A stretch of DNA of 64,000 nucleotides from NCBI RefSeq assembly GCF_001715975.1, contig NZ_MARB01000002.1:124001-188000 (forward strand), read 5' to 3'. This DNA comes from Candidatus Thiodiazotropha endolucinida. Its GTDB lineage: Bacteria > Pseudomonadota > Gammaproteobacteria > Chromatiales > Chromatiaceae. Numbering within the stretch: position 1 is the stretch's first letter; each line of letters starts with the position of its first letter. The notes beneath the pieces are model-generated. The model did no database searches. It was not told where the DNA came from and worked only from the letters and a program-made list of their open reading frames with translations. Positions 2,012 to 6,864 of the stretch are shown here, piece after piece. Position numbers and translations under genes: made by a program.

Positions 2012-3058
2012 AATAATCAACCTGATTACTCATGAAGCTCAGCTATTGAGCCTGTGGTGCAAGCATAATGGAACCTACTGAATAAAAGAGGATTTCATCA
2101 TGCCGAGAAATACCATTCAATTTCAAAAAGGCCTTGGTTTGCACGATTTTCTTGAACAATACGGGACCGAGGATCAGTGTCGTCAGGCATTGTATGATCT
2201 GCGCTGGCCGACGGGCTATGTCTGCCCTGAGTGCGGCAACACAACAGGCTGTGAACTCAAAAAGCGTCAGATATATCAATGTCACAAGTGCCATCATCAG
2301 ACTTCCCTGACCGCCGGCAGCATCTTCCATGGCACCAAGCTGCCGCTGAGAACGTGGTTTCTTGCGATCTATCTGTTGACCCAACGCAAGAAAAGTATCT
2401 CGGCGCTGCAACTTTCCTGCAAAATCGGGGTGAACTACAACACTGCCTGGCGACTCAAGCATAAGTTGATGCAGGTGATGATGGAACGTGAGCGTGGAAA
2501 AAAACTGGCCGGTCGCATCGAATTGGATGATGCTTATCTGGGAGGCGAGCAAGCCGGTAAGCGTGGTCGTGGATCGCGCAACAAAATCCCTTTCGTGGCT
2601 GCTGTTGAGACGACGCGGGACGGCAGGCCCATGAAAATTCAACTGCGTCGTGTAAGGGGCTTCCGCAAACGTGAAATCGCCCGATACGCCCGGTCCTGCT
2701 TGATGCCTGGCAGCGAAGTCTTTACCGATGGGCTTTGGTGCTTTAGTGGCGTGACAACCGCTGATTGCCATCATAACCCCATGGTGACGGGTGGTGGGCG
2801 CCAAAGTGTCCAGTATTCGTGCTTCAAATGGGTAAACACGATGTTGGGTAATGTCAAAAACAGTCTGTTGGGTACTTTTCATGCGATTTGAGATAAACAT
2901 GTGTCGCGTTATCGTGCTGAGTTCGAATATCGGTTTAACCGCCGTTTCGATTTACCCGCCATGATTGAACGATTGCTTTTTGCCGCTCTTCACACTCCAC
3001 CCATGCCATATCGCCTCTTGAGAATGGCTGAGGTTTAGGGGTAATCAGGATAATCAAT
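2012..3058 (+). mobile_element. IS1595-like insertion sequence
   Basis: The transposase frame is bracketed by imperfect inverted repeats: AATAATCAACCTGATTAC at 2012-2029 and, reverse-complemented, ATTGATTATCCTGATTAC from 3041-3058. They match at 14 of 18 positions, including the inner nine bases. I could not find an 8-bp target duplication directly outside them, so the exact ends are uncertain. The transposase inside is broken, so the copy is probably no longer autonomous. Confidence 0.5.
2100..3038 (+). pseudogene. IS1595-family transposase interrupted by in-frame TGA
   Basis: The N-terminal part has a zinc ribbon (CPECGN about 40 residues in, then CHKCHHQT), as in IS1595 transposases. An ISXO2-like DDE domain follows with IELDDAYLGGEQ and VFTDG, and then HHNPMV. 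The frame meets TGA at 2889-2891 after 263 codons. With no frame change it continues DKHVSRYRAEFEYRFNRRFDL and ends at TAG 3036-3038. NRRFDL followed by PPMPYRLL is the usual C-terminus of this family, so the TGA is most likely a point nonsense mutation (for example TCA to TGA). The truncated protein loses about 50 residues. The ATG at 2100 fits the usual N-terminus. Confidence 0.8.
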
Positions 3059-3077
3059 GAGTTAGATAGACTCTTTT

Positions 3078-3089
3078 TGACGGACTTTA
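3078..3089 (+). repeat. 12-bp direct repeat, right copy (TGACGGACTTTA)
   Basis: Identical to 1981-1992 and in the same orientation, 20 bases outside the right inverted repeat of the IS1595-like element. Confidence 0.4.
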
Positions 3090-3546
3090 TTCCCGCTCAA
3101 CACTTTGTGTCGTACTGTTCCAGACAATCAAAGTCGAAAACCAGCTATTAATGTCTAAATATGTAGCTAAGTTCGAAAATAGTTTTCTTTGAGAAACTGC
3201 TTAATTTAAGAAGGGTGTTGTTCAAGTCTTTTTTGGGCTTGAAGTGATCATCTATCAGTGAGCTAAAATAAATTCTCCTATAGAAGTGTACGGGCATCAT
3301 ACTGCTGGAAAGGGTTCATGTCCTTTAATAAAAAAAGCAGACATTAAGATTCATCCAAGCGACTTTCGTTTTCGATCTATAGTCACCACTGTGAATGAAA
3401 AGTGGATTTACTGCCATTATGCAAATGCTGCCATTAGTATAAAAGAGATAAACGATCAGTTTTGCTTAAAAGTTGCCGGTCACATATCGTATCAACGTAA
3501 TTCCCTATAAAGAAATTTATACATCTTTCAAAAATTGTCCGAATTA

Positions 3547-3574
3547 GGGACCTATTTCTTCTCATGATGCGTCT
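3547..3574 (+). promoter_or_regulatory. Predicted ECF sigma promoter upstream of dsrE-like gene
   Basis: GGGACCT at 3547-3553, 14 bases, then TGCGTCT at 3568-3574. The same two heptamers with the same 14-base gap occur at 5684-5711 in front of the carboxymuconolactone-decarboxylase-like gene. A GGGACC-type -35 and a CGTC-type -10 fit the general form of promoters read by ECF sigma factors, and an ECF sigma gene lies between the two sites. Assignment to that sigma factor is inference. Confidence 0.6.
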
Positions 3575-3673
3575 CTACTGTTAACACGCTGCTTTATGCC
3601 GAGTACTAACTCTCTCGGCGGATGTGTGATTGAAAAGTGGTTTGTACTTACTCAGAAATTGAGGAGAAACATC

Positions 3674-4042
3674 ATGAAAAATCAGAAGAAATTAGTTATT
3701 GTTGTAACAAGAGGCTGTGATGATGAGCGTGCTTCAGTAGCATGGAGTGTCGCAAATGGGGGAATTGCAACGGGTTATGAGGTGACAATGTTTCTGGTCA
3801 GTGCTGGGGCTGATTGGGCGCGCCGAGGTGCTGCGGAAAATGCACGCCCCAATCCTCTTGATCCACCCGTTAAGGAGATGATGCAAACGATCATCGATAG
3901 CGGTGGTTCCATTTTGGTATGTCCGCCATGTGCCAAAGTTCGTGGATATGATCAGGATGATCTCATCGAAGGCGCTGAACTTGCAGGTTCTGCTGCAATG
4001 TTGGGTGTGGTCAGCAATGGTGCCAGTACACTATCTTTCTAG
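3674..4042 (+). CDS. DsrE family protein (cytoplasmic)
   Basis: This 122-residue protein has no signal peptide. It starts MKNQKKLVIVVTRGCDDERAS, continues with a VTMFLVSAGADW strand-helix unit and has a CPPCAKV motif near residue 80, then LIEGAELAGSAAML near the end. The layout matches small DsrE/DsrF-like (YchN-type) proteins, which bind or shuttle sulfur on conserved cysteines; that role is known for the family and not shown here. I chose the ATG at 3674 because AGGAG lies just ahead and the longer frame from 3596 lacks a start signal. It follows an ECF-type promoter and ends before a strong hairpin. It may belong to the regulon of the sigma factor encoded just downstream. Confidence 0.8.
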   Translation: MKNQKKLVIVVTRGCDDERASVAWSVANGGIATGYEVTMFLVSAGADWARRGAAENARPNPLDPPVKEMMQTIIDSGGSILVCPPCAKVRGYDQDDLIEGAELAGSAAMLGVVSNGASTLSF

Positions 4043-4057
4043 AGTGGGTTATATAAT

Positions 4058-4087
4058 ATCAGGCCCTGAAAAATATCAGGGCCTGAT
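4058..4087 (+). terminator. Hairpin terminator after the DsrE gene
   Basis: A perfect 12-bp stem, ATCAGGCCCTGA with TCAGGGCCTGAT, closes a 6-base loop 16 bases past the stop codon. There is no proper T-run after it (TATCAAAT), so termination may be partial and some readthrough into the sigma gene is possible. Confidence 0.6.
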
Positions 4088-4200
4088 TATCAAATATAAC
4101 AGCCAATACATATCCGTTGGAAAAAGGGCGGTTTATACTGGAAGTGCAACCTCCCGATAACTGTAACAGCCAAAACATGTATAGAAATAGAGTTTATACA

Positions 4201-4833
4201 ATGGTTAACGTGAATGATAAAAGCCAACGGGTTGTTAAGGACTGGTTCAGTCAATGCATTGAAGAGAGCATGGGTTCCCTTTATGCGATGGCGGTTCGGC
4301 TTACAAAGAATGATGCCGATGCCGAAGATCTAGTAGCGGAGGCTGTGTCGAAGGCCTGGAGTTCAATAGATACCTTAAAAGACAAGAATCGTTTCAGACC
4401 ATGGATATTTTGTATACAGCGCAATATATTTATCGATCATTACCGTAAAAGCACGAAACGTACAGCAAGCATGAATTACACAGATGATTGTGAAAAATTT
4501 GCAGAAAGTGAGATTGCTTCGTTATTGATCGAGCAGCCCGATGAGTTTTTGTATTGGTGGGCTAACCCGGAAAAGGAGTTTGTCAACAACCTCTTAGGAG
4601 AGGAAATATTGCAGGCGGTAGAGAGACTTCCTGAAGCATTTAGAGAAACCGTGATACTAGTGAACCTTGAGGGATTTTCCTACGATGAAGCGGCAGAAAT
4701 ACAAGGTGTGTCGCCAGGAACAGTACGCTCTAGAATGAATAGAGGCCGCACATTGCTACAGCGGCTTCTTTGGCAACAAGCCACTGAAGCTGGGTTATTA
4801 CCGAATAAAAACGTGATGGAGCCTGGCACATGA
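4201..4833 (+). CDS. ECF-type RNA polymerase sigma factor
   Basis: The protein of 210 residues has region 2 (MGSLYAMAVRLTKNDADAEDLV, with RPWIFCIQRNIFIDHYRK as the 2.3/2.4 segment) and region 4 near the C-terminus (LPEAFRETVILVNLEGFSY, then the helix-turn-helix EAAEIQGVSPGTVRSR). Regions 1 and 3 are absent, as in group 4 sigma factors. I prefer the ATG at 4201; an upstream ATG at 4177 and a TTG at 4117 are in frame, but neither adds a conserved segment. Its stop overlaps the start of the anti-sigma gene (ATGA), a sign of translational coupling. The likely targets are the GGGACCT/TGCGTCT promoters on both sides of the module. The subgroup cannot be fixed by eye. Confidence 0.9.
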   Translation: MVNVNDKSQRVVKDWFSQCIEESMGSLYAMAVRLTKNDADAEDLVAEAVSKAWSSIDTLKDKNRFRPWIFCIQRNIFIDHYRKSTKRTASMNYTDDCEKFAESEIASLLIEQPDEFLYWWANPEKEFVNNLLGEEILQAVERLPEAFRETVILVNLEGFSYDEAAEIQGVSPGTVRSRMNRGRTLLQRLLWQQATEAGLLPNKNVMEPGT

Positions 4834-5102
4834 CAAAGAAAGCAAAAGATAGAGATGAATTACATGATGCTCTGGATAGTGATTGTCTGGAAGCGTTCGA
4901 TCATGTATATGCCTACATCAATAATGAGCTTAAAGATGAGGAAGCCATTAAGCAATTAGAACATCATCTTAGGCATTGTAAAAGTTGCTTTTCAAGAGCC
5001 CAGATGGAACGCAAAATCAATGAACGCTTAAAGAAAACGTCAAAGCCAAAAGTCCCAAAAACTCTAAGAAAACGCGTAAAAAATTTAATAGACAATTACT
5101 GA
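4830..5102 (+). CDS. Zinc-finger (ZAS-type) anti-sigma factor
   Basis: This 90-residue protein has no membrane segment. Residues about 30-62 read YINNELKDEEAIKQLEHHL then RHCKSCF, which contain the HxxxCxxC zinc-binding ZAS motif (HLRHCKSC) of anti-sigma factors such as RsrA and ChrR. A basic tail rich in Lys follows. In the family the motif binds zinc, and in several members thiol oxidation releases the sigma factor. Being soluble and Cys-containing, this one probably senses a cytoplasmic redox or sulfur signal (inference). It overlaps the sigma gene by four bases. Confidence 0.8.
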   Translation: MTKKAKDRDELHDALDSDCLEAFDHVYAYINNELKDEEAIKQLEHHLRHCKSCFSRAQMERKINERLKKTSKPKVPKTLRKRVKNLIDNY

Positions 5103-5115
5103 ATGAACGATAATC

Positions 5116-5553
5116 ATGATCAAACAGTTGATATTATATCTGTTGCCTGCGCTTTTTTTATTTGTGGTTGCAACCACTCATGCGGAATACGCCCCTTCCA
5201 AGGCCGTATATGATGTAACCAGCTCAGATCCCCTAGATCTCACGAATATACTGGATAGGGTAAGTTTGCTTCAAAACCTTTACGGTAACAATTCGTTTGA
5301 CTCGAAAATCGTTATAGTGATTCATGAGGGAACCATTCCAATATTCGCCAAAACAAAGGCTGAATATTCCGGTCTGATGCAACGAGCGAAAAGTTTAACT
5401 TTTGGAGAAATAATCGAATTTAGATTATGTATCACCTCTGCCAAATTACAGGGATATACAGCTAACGATTTTCACGAATTTGTCGCTATGGTTCCTATGG
5501 CTGACGCTGAAATTATAATGCTGCAGAATAATGGGTATGCGTATCTGCGTTAG
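5116..5553 (+). CDS. Secreted DsrE-family-like protein
   Basis: This 145-residue protein has an N-terminal signal peptide (MIKQLILYLLPALFLFVVA, probable cleavage after THA at about residue 23). The mature part has VYDVTSSDP, then KIVIVIHEGTIPIF, then RLCITSAKLQGY and VPMADAEIIMLQNNGYAYLR, an arrangement typical of periplasmic DsrE/DsrF-like proteins. One Cys lies in the RLCITS segment at about residue 112. It starts 13 bases after the anti-sigma gene and is surely co-transcribed with it. It could report on, or react with, a sulfur species in the periplasm, but no function is shown by the sequence. Confidence 0.7.
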   Translation: MIKQLILYLLPALFLFVVATTHAEYAPSKAVYDVTSSDPLDLTNILDRVSLLQNLYGNNSFDSKIVIVIHEGTIPIFAKTKAEYSGLMQRAKSLTFGEIIEFRLCITSAKLQGYTANDFHEFVAMVPMADAEIIMLQNNGYAYLR

Positions 5554-5683
5554 CATCAGATTACTTATTTGCTTATCCCGAAGAAATTAATTATTTGACC
5601 TATCGCCTGTGGCATTTGCTGTTTGCCGATAGCACTCGCCAAGCTAATTGTTATCCTTAATCCCGCAGAAATTTAAATATGAC

Positions 5684-5711
5684 GGGACCTGCAATGCTCC
5701 TTTATGCGTCT
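5684..5711 (+). promoter_or_regulatory. Predicted ECF sigma promoter upstream of AhpD-like gene
   Basis: GGGACCT at 5684-5690 and TGCGTCT at 5705-5711 with a 14-base gap, identical in both elements and spacing to 3547-3574. It lies about 45 bases before the start of the gene at 5758, in a gap of about 200 bases after the secreted DsrE gene, which suggests the AhpD-like gene has its own ECF-dependent transcript. Confidence 0.65.
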
Positions 5712-5757
5712 TTAACAGTAAGCACATTAAAGACGTTACACAGAGGAGGATGATTAG

Positions 5758-6864
5758 ATGTTACCAAAATTCATTAAACCGAGATTCTTTGATGCTTTGT
5801 CAAATATGACTGGACGCTATGTGCAGCCGGAGCCTTATCACAAAGCAGAAGGGCTGGTTAAAAAAGTCTATGACCAGGTTATAGATGAGTTTTTTATCAA
5901 TGCGCCAATGACCACTCACGCGGTATCACCAGAAATGCTGGCAGGTGTGTGGATGGCAGAGCGTGAAATTGTACTTACCGATAATCACTTATCCCGGGAA
6001 GACAAGGAAGCGCTAGGTGTCACCATTTCTCAGGTAAATAGCTGTGCCTACTGTGAGGATCTGATGAACAGTGTGGTTTATGGTGCCAATGAACTGGAAC
6101 TGGCGGAACAGATGCGCTATCACAAGCAAGACGAAATTACCGATGAGAGAACTCGCCTGCTTCATGCATGGGCGCAGAGTGTTTACGATCAGGATGCTGA
6201 GATTCTATATCAGCCACCTTTTACCCACGATGAGGCACCAGAAGTTATTGGTGTTGCTATGATGTTGAGTTATTTCAACCGATATGCGCAGGTCTTCTTT
6301 TCCGGTTCGCCGCTGGCCACGCCGATTTCATCTACTACTTTAAAATCGATACTTTATCGCTTAACCGGTGTCGAGTTACGTGAATCGGTATTGCGACGAT
6401 TACGGCCCGGACGTTCTATCGGCCTGCTGGGTCCGGCCGATCTGCCTCAGGATCTGCAATGGGCGGCCGGTAACAGCACAATCTCTGCAGCTATATCGCG
6501 CTGGGCCTCGGCAGTAGAGAAAGCTGCGAGCGCGCATGTACCGCAGCGGGTTAGGGAAGTCGTAAAAAATGAAATCAAATCATGGCAGGGTGCCCCTATG
6601 GGTCTGAGTCGTGCGTGGCTGACGCCAAAGACAGTCGGGCTAAATCAAGCCAATGCTGCTGCAGTACGCTTGGCTTTATTGACTGCTTTGTCACCGGAGC
6701 AGATGAGTGATGACATAATCGATGCCTACAAAGAACATTACAATGATACAGCGTTGGTTGTTACGGTTTCCTGGTCAGCGTTTATGGCATCCAAACGTGT
6801 GACCGGATGGCTGGCGGACAAGACGGGTTATTTCGACCAACATCAGTATGCCGTTGCTAGTTAG
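5758..6864 (+). CDS. Carboxymuconolactone decarboxylase/AhpD-like CxxC protein
   Basis: The 368-residue protein contains the AhpD/CMD core near residues 65-110: LSREDKEALGVTIS, then VNSCAYCEDLM with the CxxC pair and a following acidic residue. AhpD proteins use this CxxC site in thiol-disulfide peroxidase or reductase chemistry. The C-terminal half (about 190-368) looks like a second, Cys-poor copy of the helical fold (LNQANAAAVRLALLTALSPEQM), so the chain may be a two-domain member. The start at 5758 follows a strong GAGGAGG. With the nearby ECF system it probably forms a redox-stress effector (inference). There is no signal peptide. Confidence 0.75.
   Translation: MLPKFIKPRFFDALSNMTGRYVQPEPYHKAEGLVKKVYDQVIDEFFINAPMTTHAVSPEMLAGVWMAEREIVLTDNHLSREDKEALGVTISQVNSCAYCEDLMNSVVYGANELELAEQMRYHKQDEITDERTRLLHAWAQSVYDQDAEILYQPPFTHDEAPEVIGVAMMLSYFNRYAQVFFSGSPLATPISSTTLKSILYRLTGVELRESVLRRLRPGRSIGLLGPADLPQDLQWAAGNSTISAAISRWASAVEKAASAHVPQRVREVVKNEIKSWQGAPMGLSRAWLTPKTVGLNQANAAAVRLALLTALSPEQMSDDIIDAYKEHYNDTALVVTVSWSAFMASKRVTGWLADKTGYFDQHQYAVAS

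Follow-up and report, generated by a model that had tools for sequence, protein, structure and literature searches.

The 64,000-nucleotide stretch of the Candidatus Thiodiazotropha endolucinida genome analysed here (contig NZ_MARB01000002.1, positions 124,001 to 188,000; hereafter the window) carries two identical promoter-like sites, GGGACCT-N14-TGCGTCT, on either side of the genes coding for an extracytoplasmic function (ECF) sigma factor and its putative anti-sigma factor, which raises the question of whether this sigma factor is the one reading them. Judging from the comparison of the locus with related genomes, the ECF sigma factor whose gene lies between the two sites (P1 and P2) very probably reads both as promoters. 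The features of the locus are as follows (aa, amino acids).

3547..3574, + strand: P1, predicted ECF-type promoter, exact match; -35 element GGGACCT at 3547-3553, N14, -10 element TGCGTCT at 3568-3574; transcription predicted to start around 3580
3674..4042, + strand: dsrE, DsrE family protein of 122 aa with a CxxC motif (C83/C86); Pfam DsrE at 58.4 bits, above gathering; no signal peptide by eye
4058..4087, + strand: hairpin between the dsrE and sigma genes; perfect 12-bp stem, 6-nt loop, no T run after it
4201..4833, + strand: ECF sigma factor of 210 aa; Pfam Sigma70_r2 and Sigma70_r4_2, above gathering
4830..5102, + strand: RsrA-like zinc anti-sigma factor of 90 aa, with C19, H46, C50 and C53; Pfam zf-HC2
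5116..5553, + strand: second DsrE-like protein; Pfam DsrE at 23.4 bits for a cut-off of 22.7; signal-peptide-like N terminus by eye
5684..5711, + strand: P2, predicted ECF-type promoter, exact match; -35 element GGGACCT at 5684-5690, N14, -10 element TGCGTCT at 5705-5711; transcription predicted to start around 5717
5758..6864, + strand: AhpD/CMD-like protein of 368 aa with a CxxC motif (CAYC); Pfam CMD (PF02627) at 23.1 bits, just above the cut-off of 23

A preliminary description of this DNA had reported that the motif occurs twice, with identical elements and spacing, and nowhere else in the window. This was borne out, as the pattern is exact at 3547-3574 and 5684-5711 (both +) and no other match is found within 2 mismatches. 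The gene context is also as described there, including the ECF sigma gene between both sites, and we add to it the gene of the second DsrE-like protein (5116-5553), which looks secreted. If up to 3 mismatches are allowed, the window holds six matches against 5.0 expected, and the four non-exact ones all have 3 mismatches. For 14 fixed bases, the base composition leads one to expect approximately 0.0006 exact matches in 64 kb; for the 4.49-Mb genome, where the full pattern is exact at P1 and P2 alone, the expectation is 0.04. P1 and P2 have different N14 stretches, which indicates that P2 is no recent copy of P1.

Distribution of the site and of the sigma factor

Within the genus, the sigma gene was found in 5 of 22 genomes, with 62-65% identity in the four besides our own. 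All four have the gene order dsrE-sigma-anti-sigma with a site ahead of dsrE, the first G of GGGACC being replaced by T in one of them (TGGACC in G067). The pattern GGGACCT-N15-GCGTCT is exact in five of the 22 genomes, namely four of the five that bear the sigma gene and G008, whose site resembles one found in our own genome inside a 617-aa open reading frame (ORF).

More distant relatives were collected by scanning named genomes with a sigma profile, which gave 70 loci. The 48 with at least 39% identity were used, the 22 more distant ones being left out, and were divided at 52% identity into 19 close and 29 far loci, a cut that was set after the motif split was visible and that matches the later tree. 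Three of the close loci (L066-L068) come from same-genus genomes. In the close loci, GGGACC-N15-17-GCGTC occurs 17 times within 1.5 kb upstream of the sigma gene (in 15 of the 19 loci, all on the sense strand) and not once in the remaining 326,840 bases, both strands counted, while it is absent from the whole of the 29 far loci. The far loci have instead GGGAAC-N14-17-GCGTC, which occurs 17 times upstream (in 15 of the 29 loci) and 10 times elsewhere, against none upstream and one elsewhere in the close loci. Each of seven control patterns had at most one upstream site in the close loci and none in the far loci. The dsrE gene adjoins the sigma gene, or lies one or two genes off, in 16 of the 19 close loci, and second sites are found ahead of the sigma gene in L069, ahead of dsrE in L071 (first G changed) and ahead of a gene for a class-II glutamine amidotransferase in L072.

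The change in the -35 element runs parallel to the phylogeny of the sigma factors. The tree was built from 48 sigma rows (our own and 47 loci, L113 being omitted since region 4 is missing in its alignment). The 20 close rows form a single branch (support 99/97) with the GGAAC rows outside it, the GGAAC label having been assigned by reading and including GGAAC without a leading G, while L107 was kept as "none" despite a GGAACT ahead of it. In the close branch, 18 rows have GGGACC (two of them with the first base changed) and two have no site. The close form of the sigma factor appears to be rare, since a phylum sample of 398 genomes gave only our own genome with the sigma profile at E <= 1e-60.

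Further loci were considered after the motif had been fixed. L138 (genome G247) and L223 (G512), both outside the 48-locus set, have a site ahead of dsrE and sigma. Two genomes contain a close and a far system together, each with its own version of the -35 element: G247 (L138 and L146, preceded by GGGACCT and GGGAACC, respectively) and bin 4_1_Oct_SF_Bin27 (L073 with CGGACCT and L107 with TGGAACT), keeping in mind that such pairs come from assemblies or bins, in which mixing is possible. Amongst six far-type anti-sigma loci (L141-L144, L146 and L147), for which the upstream DNA is short, a GGGAAC site lies next to the sigma gene in two (L144 and L146); L145 was examined in the site scan only.

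Counter-evidence and alternative readings

Several observations weigh against the assignment of P1 and P2 to this sigma factor. There is no genome-wide excess of the motif. In our own genome, 27 sites (two exact, one with one mismatch and 24 with two) were found at up to 2 mismatches against 47 for the reversed pattern, and the core GGGACC-N17-CGTCT with up to one mismatch gave 52 sites against 164; in ten genomes searched with a looser pattern the counts are 52 and 237. As the motif is rarer than its reversed control, what supports the assignment is the position of the sites and not their number. The possibility of deriving a genome-wide regulon from the motif alone was rejected on these counts, and weak matches were left out as targets since with mismatches or looser spacing the motif falls below the control. 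All 52 core sites were inspected. Four are exact, of which only P1 and P2 lie outside ORFs, and of the 50 sites other than these two, 48 lie within an ORF and two (L023 and L252, one mismatch each) do not, according to a mechanical rule (ORF of at least 120 aa on either strand) which labelled some convincing promoter sites of relatives as inside and may misplace real promoters. No third convincing target was found among these 52 sites, so that the regulon in this genome would be very small; it probably consists of P1 and P2 only, or includes weaker promoters invisible to this site test.

The exact core is also missing in 4 of the 19 close loci. It is present with the first G changed in L066 and L073, only 298 upstream bases are available for L070, and L093 has no core within 2 mismatches. 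A class sample of 369 genomes contained 32 exact GGGACCT-N13/14-TGCGTC sites, spread over 27 of them. Seven of them are in four of the five genomes having a close anti-sigma factor (E <= 1e-20) and 25 in the other 364 genomes, a count that overlaps the 48-locus set (L071 comes from G462, L072 from G470 and L078 from G233) and includes the window's own genome (G000). The fifth genome, G247, has the variant CGCGTC and is hence not among the four. The reversed control gave five sites in the same five genomes against the seven, so the number of sites alone says little. Six of the seven lie at the sigma locus (P2 counted), and class-sample sites other than these seven are mostly inside ORFs. The seventh, in G470, lies on another contig than the sigma gene and, like the sole site of G443, precedes a rhodanese gene situated approximately 100 bases downstream. 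The two rhodaneses (Pfam Rhodanese) are orthologous and 65% identical, and neither site has a sigma gene in its neighborhood, a finding that speaks for the assignment. No sigma gene was found in the 91%-complete assembly of G443, while its congener G512 has one. G470 also contains a far-type system (L147), for which no site was seen in the limited upstream DNA examined. A rhodanese target was ruled out for our own genome, whose two rhodaneses are distant (28-29% identity) and have no such site in their loci.

Within the locus itself, the strong hairpin between dsrE and the sigma gene could weaken read-through from P1. Lastly, the AhpD-like gene is associated with a P2-type site only in our own genome among those examined. 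Neither it nor the second dsrE was found in the 16-19 kb examined in each of the four other sigma-bearing genus genomes; the genus has one relative of the AhpD-like gene at E <= 1e-10, 34% identical, in G028 (L065), and the named genomes searched with the 368-aa protein gave none.

This last point favours a reading in which P1 is the sigma factor's own promoter while P2 is a relic, a duplicate or another factor's site that does not serve this sigma factor, and so does the relative in G028, which has no such site in the approximately 400 upstream bases inspected. We consider this reading unlikely. P1 and P2 lie on the same strand with identical elements and the same 14-base spacing, yet the differing N14 stretches speak against a fresh copy. 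Some 40 bases separate the predicted start from the start codon of the AhpD-like gene, with a ribosome-binding-like GAGGAGG, and second sites ahead of different genes recur in L069, L071 and L072.

Another possibility is that a different ECF sigma factor of the cell reads the sites and that the linked one has other targets. ECF -35 and -10 elements do resemble one another, and GGGACC...TGCGTT is listed among the EcfG promoters of Sphingomonas (PMC6599016, drawn on in part, as are all papers cited below). This is nevertheless quite improbable, since the sites go together with this sigma gene across the genus sample, and the -35 base follows the clade even in the two bins with both systems. That the repeated motif is instead the operator of a DNA-binding regulator and no promoter is hardly credible. 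Operators can take the form of a repeated bipartite motif close to the gene of a regulator, but we see no direct support for one here. The motif is non-palindromic, always points towards the gene in the close loci, has -35/-10-like halves and a near-fixed spacer (14 bases in 24 of the 27 sites collected by pattern, 13 in the other three), and its variants track the sigma clade.

We thus return to P1 and P2 as promoters of the linked sigma factor. The proposal that this sigma factor recognizes the motif finds support in the co-occurrence within the genus, in the position of the sites in distant relatives and in the parallel change of sigma clade and -35 element. The preliminary description had further named dsrE and the AhpD-like gene as the first two targets. 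For dsrE, and thus for the operon including the sigma gene, this is strongly supported by the comparison, whereas the AhpD-like gene is a more weakly supported target, its site being exact and the pair of gene and site restricted to our genome among those examined. The genome-wide search suggested in that description gives the full pattern at P1 and P2 only, and the looser matches fail to exceed the control. As P1 precedes the dsrE-sigma-anti-sigma operon, the sigma factor very likely autoregulates.

Proteins of the locus and a proposed thiol switch

The product of the sigma gene has regions 2 and 4 and the small size typical of ECF sigma factors, and scores 95 bits for the NCBIfam sigma70-ECF superfamily (cut-off 42.9). 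Its best solved relative is SigH from Mycobacterium tuberculosis. The start of the anti-sigma gene overlaps the stop of the sigma gene by 4 bases. The anti-sigma factor has the RsrA structure (PDB ID: 5frf) as its sole PDB match at E <= 0.01, and remains under the equivalog cut-off for NCBIfam RsrA (TIGR03988, 51 bits against 62.5). It does carry the ligands of a CHCC-type zinc-binding anti-sigma (ZAS) factor (C...H-x3-C-x2-C together with an N-terminal cysteine): C19, H46, C50 and C53 are conserved in 20 of 20 close rows (our own included) and 28 of 29 far rows. Among the printed rows L098 alone departs from this set, and its ORF was probably taken in the wrong frame. In RsrA, the CHCC set binds zinc and makes the trigger disulfide, the N-terminal cysteine being needed for sensing (PMC4960319).

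Both DsrE-like proteins belong to the DsrE/DsrF-like family (Pfam PF02635). The product of the first gene (3674-4042) stays below the cut-off for the sulfur carrier DsrE2 (NF047629, 25.6 bits against 210); it is 80-83% identical in four relatives, and C83 and C86 are both kept in 17 of 17 close rows (our own included) and 9 of 9 far rows. Relatives of the second DsrE-like protein adjoin the anti-sigma gene in L070 and L071. The AhpD-like protein is below the cut-off for the peroxidase-related family TIGR01926 (32.8 bits against 81.8); with its CxxC motif and a PF02627 score that only just passes gathering, it is assigned to the AhpD/CMD family.

From the conserved CHCC ligands of the anti-sigma factor and the conserved C83 and C86 of DsrE, we infer a cytoplasmic thiol switch with autoregulation through P1 and a set of products acting on sulfane sulfur and peroxide. 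The cytoplasmic RsrA-like anti-sigma factor would hold the sigma factor until oxidation of its thiols (disulfide, or possibly persulfide or polysulfide) leads to expulsion of the zinc, formation of the disulfide and release of the sigma factor. The free sigma factor would then recognize GGGACC-N16-GCGTC (sometimes N15). Transcription from P1 would give more DsrE and, by presumed read-through past the hairpin, more sigma factor and more of its inhibitor, which amounts to autoregulation, while P2 would give more of the AhpD-like CxxC protein. These products may handle sulfane sulfur and damage by peroxide or to thiols. Oxidised thiols are the default candidate for the inducing signal, and a persulfide or polysulfide is a bolder guess. 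Our best reading of the locus is thus that a cytoplasmic thiol-redox switch may drive a small sulfur-transfer regulon via its own promoter code.

The 161-nt stretch containing the hairpin (4043-4203) folds with a z of -4.33. The hairpin is a possible attenuator or RNA-processing element, and may set the ratio of DsrE to the regulator. By an informal tally of 18 loci that were folded, a wider gap between dsrE and sigma often contains a strong hairpin of another sequence, and near-touching genes mostly have none. In L069 and L072, the right arm of the hairpin overlaps the second GGGACC site.

With regard to the surroundings, an IS1595-family transposase gene (2100-2891) lies approximately 650 bases upstream of P1; by eye its frame stops early relative to the sequence that follows, so it looks broken. 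The G+C content (2-kb steps) is 0.41-0.42 at 3001-6000 and 0.445-0.58 in the other steps of the first 30 kb. This low value and the scattered occurrence of the system within the genus (5 of 22 genomes) suggest that the locus was gained horizontally.

In the far clade (L084-L112), many sigma systems adjoin a gene for a methyltransferase. One single-linkage cluster of these, possibly made up of more than one family, covers 25 of 49 loci (the 48 and the window); the one member examined with Pfam, L085, is of the Methyltransf_31/ubiE type. Some of the L084-L112 systems are also near cupin-like or DsrE genes. In two close loci (L072 and L080), the gene for the class-II glutamine amidotransferase is situated between the promoter site and the sigma gene (Pfam GATase_4, on the L072 locus as L179).

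Relation to known systems and to the reading of the -35 element

An ECF sigma factor with a zinc anti-sigma factor is a kind of system that is already known. The closest likeness is to SigR-RsrA of Streptomyces and SigH-RshA of mycobacteria and corynebacteria (group ECF12), in which the sigma gene is also beside that of a small cytoplasmic CHCC zinc anti-sigma factor and autoregulation occurs, and which are the best PDB sequence matches of both our proteins. Their promoters are GGGAAT[G/C]-N16-[C/G]GTTG for SigR and [G/T]GGAA[C/T]A-N16-[C/G]GTT for SigH (PMC3489674). Instead of GGGAAT or GGAAYA with a GTT-type -10 element, P1, P2 and 15 of the 19 close loci have GGGACC with GCGTC. The full motif of the window (GGGACCT-N14-TGCGTCT), the proteobacterial host, the predicted sulfur-transfer regulon and the missed RsrA cut-off all set it apart from the ECF12 systems. 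The anti-sigma factors of the corresponding group AS12 have been reported from Actinobacteria only, in the portion of PMC7406223 covered.

By description, the system can also be likened to RpoE1/RpoE4 of Sinorhizobium meliloti (ECF26), as a proteobacterial ECF sigma factor serving sulfur metabolism (PMC3511301). Those factors differ in their group and in responding to sulfite, with the sulfite dehydrogenase SorT as the target; no operon of DsrE and rhodanese appears in the portion of that paper covered, and DsrE is named once outside that portion. RpoE-ChrR of Rhodobacter (ECF11) likewise has a zinc anti-sigma factor answering oxidative stress (PMC8999054). ChrR belongs to the HHCC type, which has no N-terminal cysteine and is no sensor of disulfide stress (PMC4960319), whereas all 20 close rows here have this cysteine. 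Other ECF groups with ZAS proteins exist, such as ECF270 and ECF271 (PMC8999054). As far as the alignments and the covered portions of the literature go, the -35 element, the putative sulfur-relay targets and a CHCC RsrA-type partner outside the Actinobacteria are what differs from the known systems. No account of this operon or promoter was found in the literature searched, whose scope stops short of two works that may list it, the ECF re-classification of 2021 and a PNAS study from 2020 on the promoter specificity of ECF sigma factors.

A wider reading, which is tentative and which we would sooner expect to fail than to hold, is that of a separate proteobacterial branch of redox sigma factors. 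Such a branch would have its own promoter code (GGGACC against the usual GGGAAC or GGAAC, fixed by changes in the recognition helix of region 4.2) and would control a sulfane-sulfur relay of DsrE, rhodanese and the AhpD-like protein. Its anti-sigma factor might sense persulfide or polysulfide rather than disulfide stress, DsrE might be the sulfur acceptor that shuts the response off, and co-resident sister systems would be insulated from each other.

The columns of region 4 that part close from far rows are N155, D162, P/A172, M179 and T184, and at positions 172, 179 and 184 most of the far rows show V, L and S/G/C, respectively. At position 180, the close rows have K or N and the far ones mostly A or S, as read by eye. 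In SigH of M. tuberculosis, the two G are contacted for readout by R186 and S182, and the A at -31 in part by M181 (PMC6411747). The base that changes between the clades (A to C) would sit at -31, provided that the register is the same. SigH M181 aligns with R176 of our sigma factor and both clades have R at this position, so that, in the same register, another readout of the changed base would be at work. The sister clades would represent a natural one-base switch of -35 specificity, with a short list of residues that can be tested (P172, M179, K/N180 and T184). If this is true, two sister systems with -35 elements one letter apart can share a cell and yet stay insulated. For the organism, whose genus also comprises symbiont bins from the clams Ctena and Stewartia, the assignment of P1 and P2 would turn an unstudied operon of a sulfur bacterium into a defined regulatory circuit whose sensor, promoter code and targets are open to testing.

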